A stretch of DNA of 24,842 nucleotides from positions 1-24,842 of IMG/VR virus record IMGVR_UViG_3300031510_000518, one strand, 5' to 3'. Both the position numbers and the translations under genes were made by a program. How positions within the stretch are numbered: position 1 is the first letter of the stretch; the number at the start of each line of letters is the position of its first letter. Below are positions 7,291 through 24,004 of this stretch, piece after piece. The stretch is from a virus. Below the pieces are notes generated by a model. The model worked only from the letters and a program-made list of their open reading frames with translations. It did not search any database and was not told the origin of the DNA.

Positions 7291-8451
7291 TTAAGACCTT
7301 AAATATCGAATCATTATTTCTGCAAGAGCTTTAAACCACCTTTCATCGTTACCTCTGGTGGTTTCTGCTGCAACTCCGATTCTAACTCCAGAGGTTTCAA
7401 TAAAACCGCGAGTATCGTTAGGAACACCATTTTTATTTACAGTAATAGATTTTTGTTCTAGTAAATCTGCAAATTCACGACCACTATACTTTTCTTTATT
7501 CAAGTTAATAGTAAACATATGAGATTGTGTTCCACCAGATACTATTTCTACATCAGCATCTATGAATGTCTGTGCCATTATATTTGCATTAGCTATTACA
7601 CGTTTAGTATATAACTGAAAGTCTGGTTGTAATGCTTCGTAGAAACATTGTGCTTTAGCGGCAATGATGTGCATCAGAGGCCCACCTTGAGTGCCGGGAA
7701 ATACTGCACTGTTAATTTTATTACTGTATTCTTTATCGTTCCACAAAATCATACCACCGCGAGGGCCTCGTAAAGTTTTGTGTGTGGTGGTGGTTGCAAC
7801 ATCTGCATAAGGAAATGGATTAGGATATGATTTACCAGCAATGAGTCCAGAGTAGTGACTGATATCTGCAAGTAAGATTGCACCTACCGAGTCTGCCATT
7901 TTTCTGAATCGTTTCCAATCAATCACTCGACTATATGCACTTGCTCCTGCAATAATCATTTTAGGATTATTATCTAATACTAGTTTTTCTGCTTCATCAT
8001 AATCAATAATTCCATCAGCATCAACGCCATAACTCTTAGTGACGAACCACTTACCACTTATGTTAACCTTCGCACCATGTGATAAGTGACCACCACTAGA
8101 CAAGTCCATACTAACAATTAAATCGCCGGGCGTTAAGAATGTTTTGAATACCGCAAGATTTGCATTTGCACCACTGTGAGGCTGAACATTTGCAAAGTTA
8201 CAACCAAATAATTTAGTTGCGTATTCAATGGCAAGGTCTTCTACCTTATCAACTTCATCGCAACCATTGTAGTATCTTTTGCCGGGCAAACCTTCTGCAT
8301 ACTTATTGGTTAAGATACTACCACACAATTCCATTACTTCTGGACTAGTGAAGTTCTCACTTGCGATTAGTTCTACCGTATTAGATTGACGAGCAGCCTC
8401 AGCAGTTACTATTTGTTCAATGCGGGGGTCAATAAACTTCTGCACATTCAC
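7291..8451 (-). CDS. glyA: Serine hydroxymethyltransferase
   Basis: This PLP enzyme converts serine and tetrahydrofolate to glycine and 5,10-methylene-tetrahydrofolate, the carbon donor for thymidylate and hydroxymethylcytidylate synthesis. The 386 residues are about 30 shorter than bacterial GlyA. Landmarks are ELIASENFTSPEVM near 27-40, YAEGLPGKRYY near 51-61, Asp196 and His199 in ADISHYSG, and PLP-binding Lys225 in TTTTHKTLRGPRGG. All catalytic residues I can check are present, so it should be active. The ribosome site is AAGGTG. It sits downstream of RNase H and the 174-frame protein and may feed nucleotide supply together with the class II RNR at 13 kb. No thymidylate synthase is in the window. 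Capture from a bacterial host is likely. Confidence 0.95.
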   Translation of the reverse strand: MNVQKFIDPRIEQIVTAEAARQSNTVELIASENFTSPEVMELCGSILTNKYAEGLPGKRYYNGCDEVDKVEDLAIEYATKLFGCNFANVQPHSGANANLAVFKTFLTPGDLIVSMDLSSGGHLSHGAKVNISGKWFVTKSYGVDADGIIDYDEAEKLVLDNNPKMIIAGASAYSRVIDWKRFRKMADSVGAILLADISHYSGLIAGKSYPNPFPYADVATTTTHKTLRGPRGGMILWNDKEYSNKINSAVFPGTQGGPLMHIIAAKAQCFYEALQPDFQLYTKRVIANANIMAQTFIDADVEIVSGGTQSHMFTINLNKEKYSGREFADLLEQKSITVNKNGVPNDTRGFIETSGVRIGVAAETTRGNDERWFKALAEIMIRYLRS

Positions 8452-15962: not shown

Positions 15963-15991
15963 ATTATAACTCAATTAGAGGTAGATGTCAA
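15963..15991 (-). promoter_or_regulatory. Perfect sigma70 promoter, primase-RNR unit
   Basis: On the - strand TTGACA (15986-15991) and TATAAT (15963-15968) are 17 bases apart. The -10 box is followed by TACACC and then ATG. The same -10-TACACC block occurs at the promoter at 6096-6124. Confidence 0.88.
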
Positions 15992-16401
15992 CCCCAAATA
16001 GGCATTTTTTGAATAATAAATCCGAGTACTATAGAACCACCGATAATTATCCAACGCCACTTTTCAAGAATACCAACTCGGTTGTTTAGGTCGTCCCTAA
16101 GCATCTGTTGATTGATAGCATCTTGTTTACTATGTTCTGACATTATATCAGTAAGTTCTTTATAGTTTGTAGTAATACGAGAGTGTAGTTCTCTAATGTC
16201 TGTTGTAAATTCTAAATTGGCACGATTAGCAACTTCTTCTTGATTAGCTATCCTTTCTTCATGCACAGCCAACATACGATTGACCGATGAAGACACATCA
16301 GTAATCCTTTCAATAGCGGTATCAAGACGATTAAATATTAATTTTATATCAGCAACTTCTTTTTTAAGAATTGCCACCTCTGTTGTGATTTCATTACTCA
16401 T
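15988..16401 (-). CDS. Coiled-coil protein with C-terminal membrane anchor
   Basis: The gene encodes 137 residues. Nearly all of residues 1-112 are heptad-like (EITTEVAILKKEVADIKLIF, then RLDTAIERITDVSSSVNRML), giving a long coiled coil. Residues about 114-131 (WRWIIIGGSIVLGFIIQ) form one membrane segment near the C-terminus. Similar proteins are widespread in marine phages. A C-tail-anchored coiled coil could tie a phage protein to the inner membrane, assist lysis or act as superinfection control; none is shown. It has its own promoter at 16427-16455, and an AAGG site. It is not part of the curli-like operon by position and promoter. Confidence 0.7.
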   Translation of the reverse strand: MSNEITTEVAILKKEVADIKLIFNRLDTAIERITDVSSSVNRMLAVHEERIANQEEVANRANLEFTTDIRELHSRITTNYKELTDIMSEHSKQDAINQQMLRDDLNNRVGILEKWRWIIIGGSIVLGFIIQKMPIWG

Positions 16402-16426: not shown

Positions 16427-16455
16427 AGTATACTATGTATCTAGGATATTGTCAA
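16427..16455 (-). promoter_or_regulatory. Sigma70-type promoter for the coiled-coil gene
   Basis: On the - strand TTGACA (16450-16455) and TATACT (16427-16432) are 17 bases apart, 11 of 12 bases. The -35 box lies inside the cyclase 3' end. The leader to the ATG at 16401 is about 19 bases. Confidence 0.8.
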
Positions 16456-18283
16456 TAGGTGAATAAATTTTAATAAGTTCCTCTTTACCCTTAACTTTAA
16501 TCTCACCAATATTTTTACTTGGCATAGTATCAGGTAGTTGTTCCATAGTATAACTAGAATAGATTGTTGGATAATCTTTATAATCTCCTCTAGCGGCAGT
16601 TGCTTCTAATCGTGCAGCAAGGTTGACAGAATCACCAATGACTGAATAGTCAAATCTGGTGGTACTACCCATATTGCCTACAATACATGTTCCTGTATTA
16701 ACACCACTACCAATATTAATCTCTGGTAGTCCTTTCTCTTTCCACGCAGCTTTTAGGTTCTCAGTTTCTATTGCACACTCCACAGATGTACGAACCGCTA
16801 ACTCTGCATGGTTCTCACAATCTAATGGTGCGTTCCAGAAAGCCATGATGCAATCGCCCATGTATTTATCAACCGTACCACCATTATTCAATACTATCTT
16901 GGTCATGCGGTCTAGGTAATCATTGATACACTCAACCAATCCTTCTGGGTCATCATTGTTCTTATAGTGTTCTGATATAGGAGTGAATCCAACAATGTCC
17001 ATAAAGAGAAAACTCATCTCTCTGCGTTCACCACCAAGTTTCAGTGCGTCTGGATTCTTCTGTAAAATAGCAACCTGTCGTGGATCAAGGTAATGTTCAA
17101 ATTGTTTCTTAATCTGTTGGCGTAATCTAAATTCTTCCATAAACCGCAGAAATGCAGAAACAGACCAAACTACAAACATTGTCAATACAGGATATGACCA
17201 ATCAATTAAGTAACTGTATTCAGTAAATAAGTATGAACTGCCGTAATAAGTCCCTGCAAGAAATATTGGTAATAGTGTTGCACCAACATACCAACTTAGT
17301 GTTAACACCACTACTGTTAGTATCAATGATAACACTAAAGACACTGAAAGCTCTGCTAAATCAGTCCAGAAGGGTCTTGTGATGTTCCTTCCTGCAATCA
17401 TAGTTGTTACAGAGGCAGCAATCAAATCGTGACTTGGAATTACACCCACTGGGGTTGCAACTGGATTATCTATTCCAGATGCCGTAGGTGAAAGAATAAC
17501 AATCTTTCCTACAAATGAATCATCGTCTGTTAATTTGTTTAGTGCATAGGTTTTTGTTTTCCATTTGAAATCAATCCAAATAGCACCATTGGCATCAGTC
17601 AGTATCTTTTTGTATTTTGGTATGCGTAATGCTTCCACACCACCCTCACCAGTTTTCATCTGATAACTAATATCTCCAGCAGCTGTTCTTAGTATCTCCA
17701 TAGACAGAGATGGATACAGTTGTCCATCTATTTGAATCACCAAAGGCATCCTACGAACCACACCATCATTCTCTGGAGCAATAAGCATCATACCAACACC
17801 TATTGCAGATTTTGAAAATGGTTCTATGGGGCCGACTGCACCACTATAATTGTATATCCATTGTTGCCAAGGCATACCTATCGCGGCAACACCTCTGGGT
17901 ACAGGATTTCCTTTAGTTTGATTTGCTGGGATTTGTCCTATGATGGTTGGAGTTTTTCTCAACATCTCATCAAATTGTGCATCACCACCTAATCTATCTT
18001 TGTCTGCAAACAATATGGGTAATACAACAATTGAAGCACCCTTGCGATATAGACTTTCAATGTCCTTTGCAAGTTTATCTCTTGGCCAAGGCCACTGACC
18101 ATATTCTCTTACCGAAGCATTATCTATTTCTACTGTCACGACATCAGGAGCGATTGTTTCTTGTTGTGTTCTTTGATGTTGGTCTAGTGCTTTCAACCTT
18201 ACCATCTCAAAGAACCAAAGGTCTGAAAAACGAATAACACAAAAGAATAAAATAACAGAAATAGCTATAATCCACTTTTTCAT
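16433..18283 (-). CDS. CHASE2-domain class III adenylate cyclase
   Basis: This is a membrane sensor that should make cAMP from ATP. The 616 residues have an N-terminal membrane segment (3-22), a periplasmic CHASE2 domain (about 25-310), three membrane helices (about 311-332, 335-352 and 362-380), a short linker and a class III cyclase domain (about 420-605). The cyclase shows both metal aspartates (Asp429 in FLFMDIVGFT, Asp477 in KYMGD), the adenine-selecting Lys473, Ser547 where adenylate cyclases carry Asp or Thr/Ser, and the transition-state Asn554 and Arg558 in GDSVNLAARLE. All key residues are present. The ATG follows the curlin-like stop after one base with AAGGA before it. In bacteria, CHASE2 cyclases are often beside FecR-domain proteins, as here. 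The ligand is unknown. Confidence 0.9.
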   Translation of the reverse strand: MKKWIIAISVILFFCVIRFSDLWFFEMVRLKALDQHQRTQQETIAPDVVTVEIDNASVREYGQWPWPRDKLAKDIESLYRKGASIVVLPILFADKDRLGGDAQFDEMLRKTPTIIGQIPANQTKGNPVPRGVAAIGMPWQQWIYNYSGAVGPIEPFSKSAIGVGMMLIAPENDGVVRRMPLVIQIDGQLYPSLSMEILRTAAGDISYQMKTGEGGVEALRIPKYKKILTDANGAIWIDFKWKTKTYALNKLTDDDSFVGKIVILSPTASGIDNPVATPVGVIPSHDLIAASVTTMIAGRNITRPFWTDLAELSVSLVLSLILTVVVLTLSWYVGATLLPIFLAGTYYGSSYLFTEYSYLIDWSYPVLTMFVVWSVSAFLRFMEEFRLRQQIKKQFEHYLDPRQVAILQKNPDALKLGGERREMSFLFMDIVGFTPISEHYKNNDDPEGLVECINDYLDRMTKIVLNNGGTVDKYMGDCIMAFWNAPLDCENHAELAVRTSVECAIETENLKAAWKEKGLPEINIGSGVNTGTCIVGNMGSTTRFDYSVIGDSVNLAARLEATAARGDYKDYPTIYSSYTMEQLPDTMPSKNIGEIKVKGKEELIKIYSPIDNILDT

Positions 18284-18284
18284 T

Positions 18285-19076
18285 TTAATTTCCTTGTGTC
18301 AAGGATACACCACAACCGCCAGATGATTGACAGTTCTGTGTTAGAGAGTATGATTGATTTGTACCACCTTGTTGAACCAAATTCAAATTAGTAGGATAAC
18401 TGCCGGTTAAATCTACAGTAGCAGTATGTGTTCCACTGTCTTTTTGAACAACAGATTGTGAACCACCATCAGTCCTTACAGTCATATATAAGGTTTTGTT
18501 ACCATTTCCGTTTTGTTTAACAAACATATTATTATTTTCTCCACCGTATGTGTATAGTCGAATAGAATGGTCTGCATTACCTGATCCTGTTTGTTGTCCT
18601 ATCTTGATATTATTTCCACCAGAATGTAGGTCTAGGTTAGTTGTGTGACCACCATACTCTGATGTAGTTCCAGAACAAGTTGTATCAGAGCTACTAGTAA
18701 AGGTTGCGCCCTGACAGACATGAACATTATTATTATTGCTTTTTATATGAAATCCAACTCTGTTTGAATCAGAACCATTGGTGTTGTTCTGTTCAATTTT
18801 TATATTGTTATTTACTCCGTCCAAGTCACCACCCCAAGCTCGACCAGAACCCCAGTAGGAAATCCAACTGACTGTATTGTTGTTTCCTTCTTGGTCAATA
18901 TCAAGTGTGTTGTCGTCATGGGCCATTGTTAAATTGACAGCGTTGTTCTGGCCATCTTGACTGACATTTATTGTTGTATCATCACTGGTAGTAATTTGTT
19001 CTATGAATACACTGTTTCCAGCATAAACAATACTACTCAGACTGATAGATAGTAATAGTGTTATCAGTTTCATCAT
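18285..19076 (-). CDS. Curlin-repeat secreted protein B (Cys-containing)
   Basis: The 263-residue protein has a signal peptide (MMKLITLLLSISLSSIVYA, cleavage near residue 19) and repeated curlin-like motifs of the form I-x-Q-x-G-x-x-N: SQDGQNNAVNL, IDQEGNNNTV, IGQQTGSGNAD, VKQNGNGNKTL, and a C-terminal VQQGGTNQSYSLTQN. It is rich in Asn, Gly, Gln and Ser, as in CsgA/CsgB. Such repeats fold into beta-helical amyloid after export by CsgG. It has four cysteines (two in the CQGATFTSSSDTTC segment and two in NCQSSGGC), which is unusual for curlins and could form disulfides. It overlaps the FecR-like gene by 44 bases and precedes the cyclase by one base. Structural fibre subunit is most likely; adhesin is possible. 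Confidence 0.82.
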   Translation of the reverse strand: MMKLITLLLSISLSSIVYAGNSVFIEQITTSDDTTINVSQDGQNNAVNLTMAHDDNTLDIDQEGNNNTVSWISYWGSGRAWGGDLDGVNNNIKIEQNNTNGSDSNRVGFHIKSNNNNVHVCQGATFTSSSDTTCSGTTSEYGGHTTNLDLHSGGNNIKIGQQTGSGNADHSIRLYTYGGENNNMFVKQNGNGNKTLYMTVRTDGGSQSVVQKDSGTHTATVDLTGSYPTNLNLVQQGGTNQSYSLTQNCQSSGGCGVSLTQGN

Positions 19077-20106
19077 CGGATGTTATCTCTGGTACAGGTA
19101 TTCCCTGTTGTGTTAAATTAATTCTATATCCCCAATCTGCATTTAATCTTAAATGAATATTACCATTTCCCACTTGACGAATTATCTCAAGTCGCGAACC
19201 ATCACGAATCGTATTAACTTGAGTTGATTTATTGAAACCGCTTGTCCTACCATCTACCAGTTCTCTCTGAGCGGTTAGTGCAATTAATTGGTCTAGCACA
19301 TTCATTAATAAATCAACATCTAAAGGATTAATGTCTAGTTCAGTAAATTCCAATTTATCTTCGTCTAATTGGTTTTTGTCTAACTCTCTAAATTCTAAAA
19401 AATCTATGTCTAATAAGTTTATTGTAATTTTAGAACTTTTAATTATTTTTAAAAGTTTTTCTTTGGGTGGTTTAATAATTAACAAATTATTAATTTGGTC
19501 TAAAGTTAAATCAAGTATAACTGGCTTTGAGGGATTAGATTCTCCATTTATAACTAATGTAGATTCAAATGCTTGGGTTAGAAAAACCTGTCCTGCATCA
19601 CTTTCTACTGATATCTTACCCACTGTTCCATCTGCATTGGGAAGTAGAATAATGAGAGACTTTCCAACCTCATCAACAGTCATACTAAAAGCAGTTCCAA
19701 GAACACCTATTCGTGCAGTTGGAGTGCGAATATCAACATTCTGAGAATTTAGTTTTGCAATATTACCACTTGCATATCTAACTGTTCCCAGTGCAACATT
19801 CATTACAAGTTTAGACCCTGTTTTAGAATTTGGGTCATACACAAAATCATCTATTACTAATGAGCTATGTGGACTTATTGCCACATTTGTATCATCAATA
19901 AATTTTATTCCAACATTACCATTTCCTGTACGGACATTATCTTTGTATTCAATGGCAGAGTTTTCTTCTAAAACAAGTTTATTCTCTGCCCTTTCTACCG
20001 AAGCATTGCCTTTTTGTTTTACTACATTACCAATAGTTTCCGATAAAACAATATTGTTAACCGAAATCAATAGTGTAAAACTAATCGTCCATAGTAACCG
20101 TAACAT
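19033..20106 (-). CDS. FecR-domain protein with curlin-like C-terminal tail
   Basis: The 357-residue protein has an N-terminal hydrophobic signal (about residues 2-22), then a FecR domain: GNVVKQKGNASVER, NVRTGNGNVGIKFIDDTNVAI, KLVMNVALGTVRYASG and TPTARIGVLGTAF. Next is a repeat-like Leu/Asp/Glu-rich stretch (about 215-275), and at the end (RQVGNGNIHLRLNADWG, INLTQQG) two curlin-like repeats. Bacterial FecR domains bind surface or sugar components and regulate in the periplasm, often near CHASE2 proteins. The tail suggests it could join the amyloid or anchor it. The ATG used has AGGACACA before it. It overlaps curlin A by 26 bases and curlin B by 44. Confidence 0.82.
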   Translation of the reverse strand: MLRLLWTISFTLLISVNNIVLSETIGNVVKQKGNASVERAENKLVLEENSAIEYKDNVRTGNGNVGIKFIDDTNVAISPHSSLVIDDFVYDPNSKTGSKLVMNVALGTVRYASGNIAKLNSQNVDIRTPTARIGVLGTAFSMTVDEVGKSLIILLPNADGTVGKISVESDAGQVFLTQAFESTLVINGESNPSKPVILDLTLDQINNLLIIKPPKEKLLKIIKSSKITINLLDIDFLEFRELDKNQLDEDKLEFTELDINPLDVDLLMNVLDQLIALTAQRELVDGRTSGFNKSTQVNTIRDGSRLEIIRQVGNGNIHLRLNADWGYRINLTQQGIPVPEITSDDETDNTITIYQSE

Positions 20107-20764
20107 TGTGTCCTGCCCCAACAGTTGTCATCTGAACAGTACCATCATAAGCACCATCCTGTGTAATACTGAACTGACCAGATGCTCCTGTATGATGCAA
20201 GGTTGTATCTTGATCTGCTGCTCCAGTGTGTGTAGAAGTGACCGTATTAGAGTTACCTATTAACGTAATACTTGTTACTTTCTTATCACTACCCGCTAGT
20301 GATGCGGTACTGTTTTCATTGATGGTGACGGTATTGCTATCACCTTGAGCAACCAAATCAATATCTGCATCATCAGTTGAAGCCGAACTACCTACATTAA
20401 CAGTAGTTGTGTTTGAACTACCTGTAAGCGTTTGAATAATACTGTTGTCAGCAGACGCTGAGTTTGCACCAACCGATACAGTAGATGCATTACTATTACC
20501 AGCTTGTCTAAGAGTAAACTGTTGAGTTGCACCAACTACTGATGCTGCAATTGTGTTACTATTACCAATCTGGTCAATGTCTAGTGTTTGGTTATCACCT
20601 GTTAAAGTGACCACCGTTCCAGAAACACCAAACTTGTTGGTTTGTCCGTCTTGATTAATATTTGCAGTAAGGCTTGCACCTGACTGTGTAATGTATACAT
20701 CGCTCGCATAACCCACACTCATCATAACAAAGTAAGCGAGAATTGTAAGTATGCTATTTTTCAT
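20081..20764 (-). CDS. Curlin-repeat secreted protein A
   Basis: The 227-residue protein has a signal peptide (to about residue 20, VGYA-S) and a Thr/Ser/Asn/Ala-rich repetitive body. Curlin-like units include ITQSGASL, INQDGQTNK, IDQIGNSNTI, LRQAGNSNAS and later GSSNTTTVNV, AQGDSNTVTI, LIGNSNTVTS and ITQDGAYD. The GNSNT-type unit repeats about every 20-25 residues, as curlins do. It has no cysteine, unlike curlin B. It follows csgG after 10 bases with a strong GGAGAG site, so it should be made in large amounts. It is a candidate substrate of the CsgG-type pore. CsgA (major) or CsgB (nucleator) cannot be told apart by sequence. Confidence 0.85.
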   Translation of the reverse strand: MKNSILTILAYFVMMSVGYASDVYITQSGASLTANINQDGQTNKFGVSGTVVTLTGDNQTLDIDQIGNSNTIAASVVGATQQFTLRQAGNSNASTVSVGANSASADNSIIQTLTGSSNTTTVNVGSSASTDDADIDLVAQGDSNTVTINENSTASLAGSDKKVTSITLIGNSNTVTSTHTGAADQDTTLHHTGASGQFSITQDGAYDGTVQMTTVGAGHNVTVTMDD

Positions 20765-20774
20765 TTTATCTCTC

Positions 20775-21551
20775 CTATTTGAGTTTCCATAATGCGTTTT
20801 CTATTCCTCTTTCAATCAATTGGTTTACTGCGTGTTCTATTGCTTTACGAACCGCATAAGTTGTCGATTCATTCTCAGTAGTTCCAGCTTCAATTTCGAT
20901 TAATTCAGTACCCATATCTAAAAACTTAAATACATTCATACCAACTTTAGTACTTAATATAGTCTTTTGTGAACTTACCGCAAGTAATACCTCACCAGTT
21001 TGTACAGATATTAATCGTAATGAAACCGATACCATATCTCTACGATATTGGTCACGAATACCTATACCTAAATATCTCGAACCAACACCACCTGTTTCTA
21101 TATTGGTATCGTAACCAATGATACCACCACTTATAAGAACACCAGCAAACAATAAAGGTCTAACTTTTTCTGACTTATCTCCGTCATAAGTTGCTCTTGT
21201 GTTTCTTATGATTTGTCGTTCCTTTAAAAGATAGTCTAAATCCATCCTTTCAACAACAGTAAACCATTCACCATTACCCGCAGTTTTAAGTGCTTGTACT
21301 AATAATGTTCCTGATCCCTGTGTGACTGCTGTGCTTAATGAGGCAAGGTTGTCACTGGGCTTTCTTTGACCTGTTTGGTCATTAAACTGGTAAACAGCAA
21401 TCTCAACCTTCCTTTCGGGGGGTCGATAATTTTTTAACTTGTTCGTCATTGGTGTAGATGTGGCTGTTTCCATCACTTCGTATGTTGTACAACCACCTAA
21501 ACTAAAAAGTAAAATCACCAACAGGAACTGTAATAACTGTTTCACTTCCAT
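20775..21551 (-). CDS. csgG: CsgG-type curli secretion lipoprotein
   Basis: CsgG forms a nine-subunit outer-membrane pore that exports curlins. This 258-residue protein has a lipoprotein signal ending in LGGC (Cys21) and family motifs in order: IAVYQFNDQTGQRKP (51-65), STAVTQ (73-78), ERMDLDYLLKERQIIR (101-116), SGGIIGYDTNIETGGVGSRYLGIG (141-164) and SLRLISVQTGEVL (177-189). It is close to the E. coli length (277 with signal). By eye, the E. coli constriction residues Tyr51, Asn55 and Phe56 align to Ser/Asp, Ser and Leu, so the aromatic ring seems lost. The ATG used has GGAT 6 bases upstream; the frame starts two codons earlier. It overlaps csgF by 50 bases. Confidence 0.92.
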   Translation of the reverse strand: MEVKQLLQFLLVILLFSLGGCTTYEVMETATSTPMTNKLKNYRPPERKVEIAVYQFNDQTGQRKPSDNLASLSTAVTQGSGTLLVQALKTAGNGEWFTVVERMDLDYLLKERQIIRNTRATYDGDKSEKVRPLLFAGVLISGGIIGYDTNIETGGVGSRYLGIGIRDQYRRDMVSVSLRLISVQTGEVLLAVSSQKTILSTKVGMNVFKFLDMGTELIEIEAGTTENESTTYAVRKAIEHAVNQLIERGIENALWKLK

Positions 21552-21948
21552 TTGCATCCAATATTGTTAATGCTACATTGTCTGTATCTTTAATATAGCT
21601 GATTGTAGTACCCTCAAATGTGACTGTTCCATTCTGATTGGAATTTTCTCCAAACATACTATCCACAAGTTGTTTCGACAGTTGAGCGTAAATTCTTGAT
21701 TCTACATTCTTTATAAACTTTGACTGATTTGTATTTGCAAGATTTCTCTCAAGTTCTCTAGCAGCTGCTGCTTTCTTTTCTTTGTTTGCTTTCACACGAG
21801 AATATTCTTGATTCTCGATAGTAAGAACATGGGAACTATATCCCACTCCACTGAAGGCAGGAGAAACCCACTGGTGAGTCAGGTCAGTAGAATTAGCGTT
21901 CATACTAAAAAATACTATTAATATAGTTATTAGACTATGAATTTTCAT
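21502..21948 (-). CDS. csgF: CsgF-like curli assembly protein
   Basis: CsgF sits in the CsgG pore on the outer face and helps nucleation of curli at the surface. The 148-residue protein has a signal peptide (about 1-20), then the pore-inserting region DLTHQWVSPAFSG (CsgF of E. coli has the comparable N-P-x-F-G-G segment), an Ala/Lys-rich helix (about 53-75), and a C-terminal beta domain: ESRIYAQLSKQLVDSMFGE, GTVTFEGTTISYI and ALTILDANGSETVITVPVGDF. The E. coli protein is 138 residues. Its start coincides with the stop of the upstream membrane protein (TAATG), and its 3' end overlaps csgG by 50 bases. CsgE, the periplasmic adaptor, is not seen in the window. Confidence 0.87.
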   Translation of the reverse strand: MKIHSLITILIVFFSMNANSTDLTHQWVSPAFSGVGYSSHVLTIENQEYSRVKANKEKKAAAARELERNLANTNQSKFIKNVESRIYAQLSKQLVDSMFGENSNQNGTVTFEGTTISYIKDTDNVALTILDANGSETVITVPVGDFTF

Positions 21949-22259
21949 TAGCCCTTCTTCCCCCTCTTTCCTTCTTTGTGTAATTGTTCGGTTTCAAGTT
22001 TTTCTTTAATTTCGTCTTGTAGTTTGTCTTTTTCTCTGTATTCCAAAACAACATTTACCTTTTGTTGCAATCGTATCATATCATTATCTAACATACGATT
22101 TTGGTCTATACATTTTATGAGAGCCATGTGCATTGCATCTAACTCTGGTTGAATGTTATTACTAATAAATGCCCATATGTAATATATGAAATATCCCATA
22201 CCGACAGCCATAACAACTGGAAACCCAAATTCAGCAATTAGTGTTCCTATGTCTTGCAT
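21948..22259 (-). CDS. Small membrane protein, paralogue 2
   Basis: The gene encodes 103 residues. The N-terminus IGTLIAEFGFPVVMAVGMGYFIYYIWAF (the membrane segment is about 9-30) resembles the upstream gene product, suggesting a duplicated pair. The rest is a long charged helix with a basic C-terminus (KEGKRGKKG). Holin, antiholin or curli-channel helper are all possible; none is proven. The ATG overlaps the upstream stop by one base and its own stop overlaps the csgF start by one base, so it is part of the same operon. Similar short proteins occur in other marine phages. Confidence 0.72.
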   Translation of the reverse strand: MQDIGTLIAEFGFPVVMAVGMGYFIYYIWAFISNNIQPELDAMHMALIKCIDQNRMLDNDMIRLQQKVNVVLEYREKDKLQDEIKEKLETEQLHKEGKRGKKG

Positions 22260-22552
22260 TAATCTCGCCTCACATCAAGCTTACCATCTTCTTTGAAGTT
22301 TTCAGCACGAGCAATACGATTAATGTCGGGAGTCACTCCTAAAGCAGAACTAACTAATAAATCAATTTTTATCAACTCATTACATCCCACTCTCGCACGA
22401 TCTTCGAGCATTTTACAAAACATAGTCAGAGTTTTTATTTGGTCAATTATACCTTCAAGTATTTGTTTTAATACCATGAATATAAAAAATCCCATTAATA
22501 TTGCTACCGCAATTGGAACTCCGACTTCAGCAATTAGAGTAAATACATCCAT
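22259..22552 (-). CDS. Small membrane protein, paralogue 1
   Basis: The gene encodes 97 residues. The N-terminus VFTLIAEVGVPIAVAILMGFFIFMVLKQI holds one membrane segment (about 8-28) and aligns with its neighbour at LIAE, at VP/FP and at MG-F/Y-F-I. The C-terminal part is polar, with two cysteines, and does not align with the neighbour. The ATG follows a perfect T4-type late promoter and has GAGG about 10 bases before it, so it is the first gene of the curli-like operon. Function unknown; a membrane partner of the secretion system or a holin-like protein are candidates. Confidence 0.72.
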   Translation of the reverse strand: MDVFTLIAEVGVPIAVAILMGFFIFMVLKQILEGIIDQIKTLTMFCKMLEDRARVGCNELIKIDLLVSSALGVTPDINRIARAENFKEDGKLDVRRD

Positions 22553-22572
22553 AGCTTACAGCCTCTTTTTAA

Positions 22573-22581
22573 CTATTTATA
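22573..22581 (-). promoter_or_regulatory. T4-type late promoter of the curli-like operon
   Basis: The - strand reads TATAAATAG, an exact match to the T4 late -10 element TATAAATA (22574-22581). It lies 21 bases before the first ATG of the operon. In T4, gp55, gp33 and gp45 direct polymerase to this element; a gp33-like gene is present at 2301-2525. Confidence 0.72.
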
Positions 22582-22628
22582 AGATTCGGAAAGGATACTT
22601 GGTATATATGGGATAAAATGGTGCCGAT

Positions 22629-22661
22629 AAAAAAGTCTCCATTAAAAATAACAGAGACTTT
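22629..22661 (-). terminator. Rho-independent terminator after the DUF1353 gene
   Basis: An 8-bp perfect inverted repeat (AAAGTCTC at 22632-22639, GAGACTTT at 22654-22661) has a 14-base loop. On the - strand the stem is followed by a U-run of about six, from the As at 22629-22634. It separates the lysis group from the curli-like operon. The rest of the 132-base gap (22553-22684) holds only the late promoter. Confidence 0.75.
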
Positions 22662-22684
22662 ATTTCGTATTTAAGTTGTGGTAA

Positions 22685-23290
22685 TTACTTAACTTTAGCG
22701 TTTACTTTGCGGTGTTTGTTCCATGCAGCGAACCCACCTAATCTTAATGCCCAATATGCGAGATAGTTCATGACTTTAAATCCATTGATTTCTATATTTA
22801 TATCTCTAAACATCTTATCAGATTCTTTTTGTGTAAGCTTACCATAAGTACCTTTTGCATTTTTCTTCAGTGTTTCATATTTATACGCATAGTCATGGAC
22901 TAGTCCACCCATCAACAGAACTCCTGTTGGGGATAACCATGTGTGTAAAAACTTAGGAATAGATGCACCATCAAACTGAAACCCTTTAGGGATTATGTAT
23001 TGAACTCCATTAAGCTTAAATACAAACTTCTTTGCGATTATCCAATTACGACTTCCGGTCATCCACATCCAGATTGCACCCCAAAATCCTTTATCCTTTG
23101 TTGCAATAGGAATAGGTATCATGTGTGGCATTTCTGAATATTCAAACACATGGGAATCTTTACAAAGACATTCCTTGTCATCAAACAAATTAATAATCCA
23201 ACCAATAATAATTATAATACCAACAACTGTAAACTGCCACCATGTGACTAGTTGTTGTAGAATAAAGTCTGTTATTTCAATCTGTGTCAT
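22685..23290 (-). CDS. DUF1353 family protein with membrane anchor
   Basis: The 201-residue protein has one N-terminal membrane segment (about 18-35). A DUF1353 domain follows: YIIPKGFQFDGASIPKFLHTWLSP and the LMGGLVHDYAYKY motif with conserved His-Asp, then ESDKMFRDI near residue 160. The domain is common in phages and small viruses next to lysis genes; its biochemical role is not known to me. The His-Asp pair could bind metal. The ATG overlaps the o-spanin stop as ATGA, so it is translated with the lysis group. It ends at a terminator. Confidence 0.82.
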   Translation of the reverse strand: MTQIEITDFILQQLVTWWQFTVVGIIIIIGWIINLFDDKECLCKDSHVFEYSEMPHMIPIPIATKDKGFWGAIWMWMTGSRNWIIAKKFVFKLNGVQYIIPKGFQFDGASIPKFLHTWLSPTGVLLMGGLVHDYAYKYETLKKNAKGTYGKLTQKESDKMFRDINIEINGFKVMNYLAYWALRLGGFAAWNKHRKVNAKVK

Positions 23291-23676
23291 TTGTCCGTTT
23301 CCCCTATTGCTGTTGGTGCTACAGCACCCTCATAGTAAACAATAATTTGTTTTTGTTGTTCTATGTAACGTCTTAATTCTGAGAAATTTAAACTCAAATT
23401 CTCATAGTCTTTTACAGATAAAGCAATGTATGCATCAGCACCATTCTTTTTCTCAAAATCTGATATAAACTTATCATAGTTTAATTTTGAAACTACATAA
23501 ATTTTTACATCATTAAGCTGTACTTTCTTTGGGTGTGTTGCTATTGGAACAGTTGTTTTAACAGTATTAGTTACTGTTATTACTTTCGATTCCGGCAGAT
23601 ACTTGCTCATCATGCTGCACCCCGACAGTATTGTCAGTGAGAGCAGTAAGATCAACCCATAACTTATTTGTCGCAT
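23287..23676 (-). CDS. o-spanin-like outer-membrane lipoprotein
   Basis: This is the outer-membrane half of a two-part spanin that fuses the two membranes in the last step of lysis. The 129-residue protein has a lipoprotein signal with lipobox TILSGC (Cys20 from this start) and then a short polar chain with a possible coiled region near the end. The ATG used has GAGG 7 bases upstream; the open frame begins six codons earlier. It starts inside the i-spanin gene in another frame and overlaps it by 110 bases, the usual Rz/Rz1 arrangement. It is longer than lambda Rz1 (60), so an additional periplasmic role is possible. Confidence 0.78.
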   Translation of the reverse strand: MRQISYGLILLLSLTILSGCSMMSKYLPESKVITVTNTVKTTVPIATHPKKVQLNDVKIYVVSKLNYDKFISDFEKKNGADAYIALSVKDYENLSLNFSELRRYIEQQKQIIVYYEGAVAPTAIGETDK

Positions 23677-24004
23677 TTTGCATCCTCTTTTCAATCAGCC
23701 CCGGCTTCTTATTTGCTAAGTGGGTTAGATTGTGTTTCTGTAATGTAGATCGGAGTTCATCTCCGTATTTTTCTGCTTGTTGCAAACTAGCTTGTAGTTT
23801 AGAATTTAGTTTTGCATTTTGAACTGCACTTTCTTCAAGTGTCTTAACACTTGCTTCACTAATCTGCACAGCAACTTCTAGTTTTGCATTGTTTTCACGC
23901 AATGTCGCTATCGTTGCTTGAGTTGTATCATAGTAATACTTAGCACTCAAACCAGCAGCACTAATGATTCCCACTAAAATAATTATTGCATATAATTTAA
24001 ACAT
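23567..24004 (-). CDS. i-spanin-like inner-membrane protein
   Basis: The 145-residue protein has an N-terminal membrane segment (about 3-22) and then a long Ala/Gln/Lys/Glu coiled coil (about 28-95), the normal layout of Rz-type i-spanins. The C-terminus is polar and extends past the o-spanin start. Inner-membrane anchor plus periplasmic coiled coil lets it bind the o-spanin and pull the membranes together. The gene starts right after the 53-residue gene. It has no clear strong ribosome site, so coupling to that upstream gene is likely. Confidence 0.78.
   Translation of the reverse strand: MFKLYAIIILVGIISAAGLSAKYYYDTTQATIATLRENNAKLEVAVQISEASVKTLEESAVQNAKLNSKLQASLQQAEKYGDELRSTLQKHNLTHLANKKPGLIEKRMQNATNKLWVDLTALTDNTVGVQHDEQVSAGIESNNSN

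Follow-up and report, generated by a model that had tools for sequence, protein, structure and literature searches.

A pelagimyophage-type curli secretion cassette headed by two small membrane proteins in a T4-like virus record

Results

Organisation of the cassette

The window analysed here is the whole 24,842 nt stretch of IMG/VR virus record IMGVR_UViG_3300031510_000518 (positions 1 to 24,842), from a marine virus. Eight adjoining genes on its minus strand make up a curli (type VIII secretion) cassette, in the order S1, S2, csgF, csgG, curlin A, fecR, curlin B and CHASE2 adenylate cyclase. On one side the cassette is flanked by a terminator-like hairpin with a U-run (about 22627-22665, minus strand; RNA fold -16.9 kcal/mol, z -4.8), which would end the upstream transcript, and downstream by a DUF7201 gene. 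An exact T4-type late promoter site, TATAAATA, was located at 22574-22581 on the minus strand, 22 bases ahead of S1. A single one-strand operon with a terminator and a late promoter at its front had been described in the initial annotation of this DNA, and all three features were recovered. The same annotation listed CsgF, CsgG, two curlin-repeat proteins and a FecR-curlin fusion. These genes are present, and S1 and S2, which lie inside the same span, had been left out; the cyclase, taken as the border of the operon, belongs to the cassette. The junctions had been given as gaps or overlaps of 0-10 bases, which does not apply to CsgF/CsgG (overlap of about 50 bases), curlin A/FecR (about 26) and FecR/curlin B (44).

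Of 107 distinct related loci, 42 have TATAAATA ahead of S1, where about 2 would be expected, so a phage late promoter often leads the cassette. The site also preceded CsgF in 11 related loci and was absent ahead of CsgG, FecR and S2 among the related loci (0/108 for S2). A sigma-70 promoter scan stayed near its shuffles (39 against 32.5 expected) and was set aside. The window also carries the T4-type core gene gp32, the product of which is 66% identical to that of phage Melnitz and 60% to that of HTVC008M; together with the late promoter this places the virus among T4-like (Kyanoviridae-type) phages.

Secretion proteins and curlins

Both CsgG and CsgF of the type VIII secretion system (T8SS) are encoded in the window, and secreted curlin-repeat substrates were recognised at the family level. 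CsgG, the outer-membrane pore lipoprotein (20775-21551, minus strand, start possibly at 21557), has the lipobox LGGC and matched Pfam PF03783 at 1.7e-57 and CsgG in the PDB at 9e-47. CsgF (21502-21948, minus strand) has a signal peptide and matched PF10614 at 4.2e-18. When the CsgF profile was compared with the PDB, the match to CsgF was marginal and the top match was a repeat artefact.

The two curlin-repeat proteins held up as families. Curlin A, a CsgA/B-like secreted protein (20081-20764, minus strand), and curlin B (18285-19076, minus strand) both carry signal peptides. Curlin_rpt was matched by 31 of 37 curlin A orthologues (best 6e-10) and by 21 of 25 curlin B orthologues (best 3e-10). 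Profiles of both families matched the solved curlin 8c50 (2.8e-13 for curlin A, 5.3e-8 for curlin B) and matched one another. The spaced motif hxQxG occurs five times in each protein, whereas 0.3-0.4 copies were expected in shuffles (about 12-17 times fewer). The structural model of curlin A (predicted local distance difference test, pLDDT, 85.9; predicted template modelling score, pTM, 0.81) is all-beta, with strand-turn-strand units about 22-29 residues apart. The C-terminus of curlin B ends in an invariant pair of cysteines. In comparison with locus L005, the synonymous divergence (dS) was about 1.0 for both curlin genes and 0.3-0.5 for the other cassette genes, and this excess suggests that curlin genes have been exchanged by recombination.

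The FecR-domain protein

The fecR product (19033-20106, minus strand, possibly starting at a TTG at 20121) has a signal peptide, and the FecR domain was its sole Pfam match (8.6e-7). Foldseek matched its beta domain to the PupR signalling domain (6ovk, E 2.6e-4). Pfam recognised no N-terminal anti-sigma domain, and in the model the only element ahead of the beta domain is a helix resembling a signal peptide. The protein is best viewed as periplasmic rather than as an iron or sigma regulator. In the AlphaFold2 model, residues 290-357 fold into short strands set apart at the C-terminus (pLDDT about 80), and two hxQxG motifs lie in this tail (P = 0.003). The short tail is probably curlin-like on the model and the motif test, so that the fusion proposed earlier is plausible.

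The S1/S2 membrane pair

S1 (22259-22552, minus strand, 97 aa) and S2 (21948-22259, minus strand, 103 aa) are paralogues (hhalign 98.8%, E 5e-17) of about 100 aa, each with one transmembrane (TM) helix predicted from sequence. S1 belongs to phrog_18771 and has a conserved C-terminal D-x-R-x-D motif. S2 is weakly holin-like: weak matches to the holin family phrog_4898 were obtained for 10 of 24 S2 members and 3 of 24 S1 members, the best at 4e-5. A scan seeded with S2 returned 80 loci, 79 of them with curli genes, and the remaining contig ends at S2; the pair thus seems dedicated to the curli cassette. In about 16 loci S1 and S2 lie downstream of the cassette on the opposite strand.

The leading genes of the pelagiphage cassette have been labelled 'histidine kinase' (PMC9599517). 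Position and number suggest that S1 and S2 are these published genes. Neither HisKA nor HATPase kinase domains were found in 48 S1/S2 members, and by their predicted domain content S1 and S2 are not histidine kinases. Recognition of the S1/S2 membrane pair as a dedicated part of the cassette is new.

The CHASE2 adenylate cyclase

The last gene (16433-18283, minus strand) encodes a CHASE2-class III adenylate cyclase (Pfam 1.5e-40 / 3.7e-17), so that the identities proposed initially for CsgG, CsgF, FecR and the cyclase all stand. In alignment with CyaB from the PDB, all six catalytic residues were kept: the metal-binding Asp pair, the substrate-binding Lys and Asp, and the transition-state Asn and Arg. 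The enzyme is predicted to be catalytically intact. The site could be read in 107 phage-type cyclases; in 34 of them, that of Melnitz included, the substrate Asp and/or the transition-state Asn is replaced, as counted by alignment. In the motif HSYDVLGDAVSTAARIE, seen in about one third of phage CHASE2 cyclases, Ser replaces the substrate-binding Asp and the transition-state Asn, with the metal-binding Asps, Lys and Arg unchanged. Altered sites occur for example in L003:11610-13673, L019, L025, L093 and Melnitz. It is possible that the HSYDVLGDAVSTAARIE cyclases have altered specificity or have lost activity.

A cyclic nucleotide monophosphate (cNMP)-binding domain turned up in just 9 of 147 SAR11-family genomes and in none of 11 large phage records that bear the cassette. 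Two of these 147 genomes have a class III cyclase above the cut-off, and three have CsgG, on contigs with the phage-type cassette. Because cNMP-binding domains are absent from the phage records and scarce in the SAR11-family genomes, a cyclic AMP (cAMP)-CRP-curli circuit in SAR11-type hosts is unlikely.

Conservation among viruses

The gene block is not novel, since a block with these genes in this order has been published for pelagiphages. CsgF and CsgG were reported in pelagimyophages in 2020 (PMC7029224), and a 2022 study (PMC9599517) described the complete set in podo- and myoviruses, FecR, the cyclase and the 'histidine kinase' genes at its head included. The cultured phages HTVC008M and Melnitz carry the T8SS module in the order CsgF-CsgG-curlin-FecR-curlin-cyclase with one or two small genes leading, as in the window. 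The window CsgG is 55% identical to that of HTVC008M and 46% to that of Melnitz, and the window cyclase differs from the Melnitz enzyme in its intact site. In Melnitz, CsgF and CsgG were treated as a pore without substrates (PMC9004378); the GenBank record of Melnitz names two curlin-repeat proteins. The suggestion that such a set is rare was therefore mistaken, and a single FecR-seeded scan returned at least 553 relatives in IMG/VR.

CsgG- and FecR-seeded IMG/VR scans, which share some contigs, yielded 64 loci with enough flank. S1, S2, CsgF, CsgG, curlin A, FecR and the cyclase were present in all 64 of these untruncated loci, and two curlins in 52. Conserved order in related phages had been proposed as a check; the genes were not scattered, and their order was nearly invariant across relatives. 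All eight genes showed dN/dS (ratio of nonsynonymous to synonymous divergence) of 0.04-0.28 against close relatives, which indicates purifying selection.

Bacterial counterparts

FecR and the cyclase have been stated to be absent from bacterial T8SS operons (PMC9599517). A CsgF-CsgG-curlin-FecR-CHASE2 cyclase operon was found in Hyphomonas sp. TMED17 (L162:9366-15389), on a 705-kb contig of a metagenome-assembled genome (MAG). It was kept as bacterial because ordinary bacterial genes surround the cassette. This operon has the gene order of the phage cassette; unlike the latter it lacks S1/S2, has one curlin and lies among chromosomal neighbours. Its CsgG and cyclase fell with their phage counterparts to the exclusion of other bacteria (Shimodaira-Hasegawa-like approximate likelihood-ratio test, 98 and 99) on long branches, and the tree does not separate kinship with a donor from receipt from phage. 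Searches for FecR in the family, order and class to which TMED17 belongs, with about 700 alphaproteobacterial genomes sampled, turned up no other bacterial operon like it.

At least nine other bacterial genomes (L379-L387) have FecR next to a CHASE2 cyclase and no curli genes close by. The two genes are adjacent as in the phage cassette. The bacterial pairs differ from it in that the fetched stretches hold no curli genes and FecR matches the profile only in the FecR domain. Since FecR-CHASE2 pairs also exist apart from curli genes, a curli operon and a FecR-cyclase pair appear to have been united in the cassette.

Five further MAG contigs with phage-type cassettes (L161, L163, L167, L169 and L182) were filed as Pelagibacter, Pirellulales, Sphingobacteriales, Flavobacteriales and Rhodobacteraceae. 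All branch with viral sequences and three of the five have S1/S2; they are probably phage contigs binned in MAGs.

Other features of the window

A short way upstream of the cassette, two overlapping genes encode an Rz-like spanin pair (23287-23694 and 23567-24004, minus strand; phrog_812 1.1e-12, phrog_739 1.6e-12). The product of the DUF7201 gene (15988-16401, minus strand), directly downstream of the cyclase, is a coiled-coil protein that has a TM helix at its C-terminus; in 10 of 84 loci a homologue lies after the cassette. A 386-aa protein encoded at 7291-8451 on the minus strand matched PHROG 9968, labelled only 'methyltransferase', at E 1e-161; on our reading its sequence is that of a serine hydroxymethyltransferase.

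Discussion

With moderate confidence, we read the locus as a pelagimyophage-type type VIII secretion cassette that exports curlin fibres late in infection. A virus-made CsgG/CsgF pore would be placed in the host outer membrane at that stage, and both phage curlins would pass through it to give extracellular amyloid-like fibres on a host without curli genes. The cyclase's CHASE2 domain and the FecR protein, which probably has a curlin-like tail, would probably sense the state of the envelope or of curlin and set cyclase activity, and S1 and S2 would probably act in the inner membrane. The most likely benefit would be that cells or debris are held near the progeny. In favour of this reading stand the strong CsgG and CsgF matches, the joint retention of secreted curlins with profile matches to solved ones, purifying selection on all eight genes, the late promoter at the front, the scarcity of CsgG in SAR11-family genomes, the secreted FecR with its probable curlin-like tail and the existence of separate FecR-CHASE2 cyclase pairs in bacteria. 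The uses put forward in the initial annotation (an amyloid coat, aggregates or a pore) repeat published hypotheses and are inferred. Compared with csgBAC/csgDEFG of E. coli, the phage cassette has CsgG, CsgF and curlin-repeat substrates in common; it differs in adding FecR, the CHASE2 cyclase, S1/S2 and a phage late promoter, and in lacking CsgE.

Several observations weigh against fibre export. CsgE, reported missing at the outset, gave no match above the cut-off in the 11 large cassette-bearing phage records, which include the complete HTVC008M and Melnitz, and one sub-threshold match was seen; CsgE is not needed for basic curli (PMC7029224). Taken singly, the window curlins fall below the Pfam threshold (curlin B, E 0.011; curlin A, no match). 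Foldseek comparison of the curlin A model with the PDB gave nothing significant, so that the curlin assignment rests on sequence profiles. Fibres have yet to be seen: for Melnitz, neither cytograms nor transmission electron microscopy is reported to have shown clumping (PMC9004378). A search of papers since 2022 that combine 'curli' and 'pelagiphage' turned up no functional test. The cyclase is without a known target, as no cAMP receptor was found in the phage records or in most SAR11-family genomes. These genomes may not represent the host of this virus, and OM43 genomes lay outside the search, which limits the argument on cAMP.

The main rival to fibre export is a role in lysis, possible but unlikely in our judgement, in which the CsgG/CsgF pore and S1/S2 would form a gated permeability of the outer and inner membranes that times progeny release, with the curlins as plugs or triggers. 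It remains the main rival because S1 and S2, short single-TM proteins, are holin-like; the late promoter at the head of the cassette and the spanin pair just upstream also fit, and a pore or lysis role has been proposed for Melnitz (PMC9004378). However, the holin matches are weak and spanins lie within 3.5 kb of the cassette in just 4-5 of 153 related loci. A pore would not need the constant retention of two secreted curlins, and this retention speaks against pore-only models in general. The same difficulty meets the proposal that CsgG without CsgE stays open and admits larger nutrients during infection (PMC7029224, PMC9599517). The absence of CsgE agrees with it, but CsgF, the two curlins, FecR and S1/S2, conserved as described above, would be left unexplained and the late timing would not fit; we consider it highly improbable. 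Late timing also bears on the idea that surface fibres hide receptors and exclude competing phages, which draws on the argument that bacterial curli limit phage access (PMC9599517). Judged from T4-like biology, expression from a late promoter would come late for superinfection exclusion, and we give this idea as little credit as the uptake pore.

Regulation has been proposed in which an iron-responsive FecR, a histidine kinase and cAMP from the cyclase turn on curli transcription, like CsgD/CRP in E. coli (PMC9599517). A FecR domain and a cyclase with an intact site are indeed present. The S1/S2 members lack kinase domains, though, FecR carries a signal peptide while lacking a recognised anti-sigma domain, cNMP-binding domains are absent from the phage records and scarce in SAR11-family genomes, and the promoter is of the phage late type; of the alternatives weighed here this is the least credible. 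It is conceivable, if doubtful, that the cassette goes beyond fibre export with regulators and is a self-contained surface-sensing device. FecR, with its curlin-like tail, would then read curlin export in the periplasm and control the cyclase, the product of which would act on a target not of the CRP type, with S1/S2 as an inner-membrane output (e.g. permeability or release timing).

The present data do not support the published models of regulation by cAMP, FecR and a kinase. They offer testable corrections: S1/S2 as dedicated parts, a matching bacterial operon and few recognisable cAMP receptors. Phage contigs in MAG bins could mislead curli surveys of the bacterial groups concerned. Curli of phage origin are common in the ocean; if fibre export is true, SAR11-type cells would gain from them a surface structure not encoded in their own genomes.

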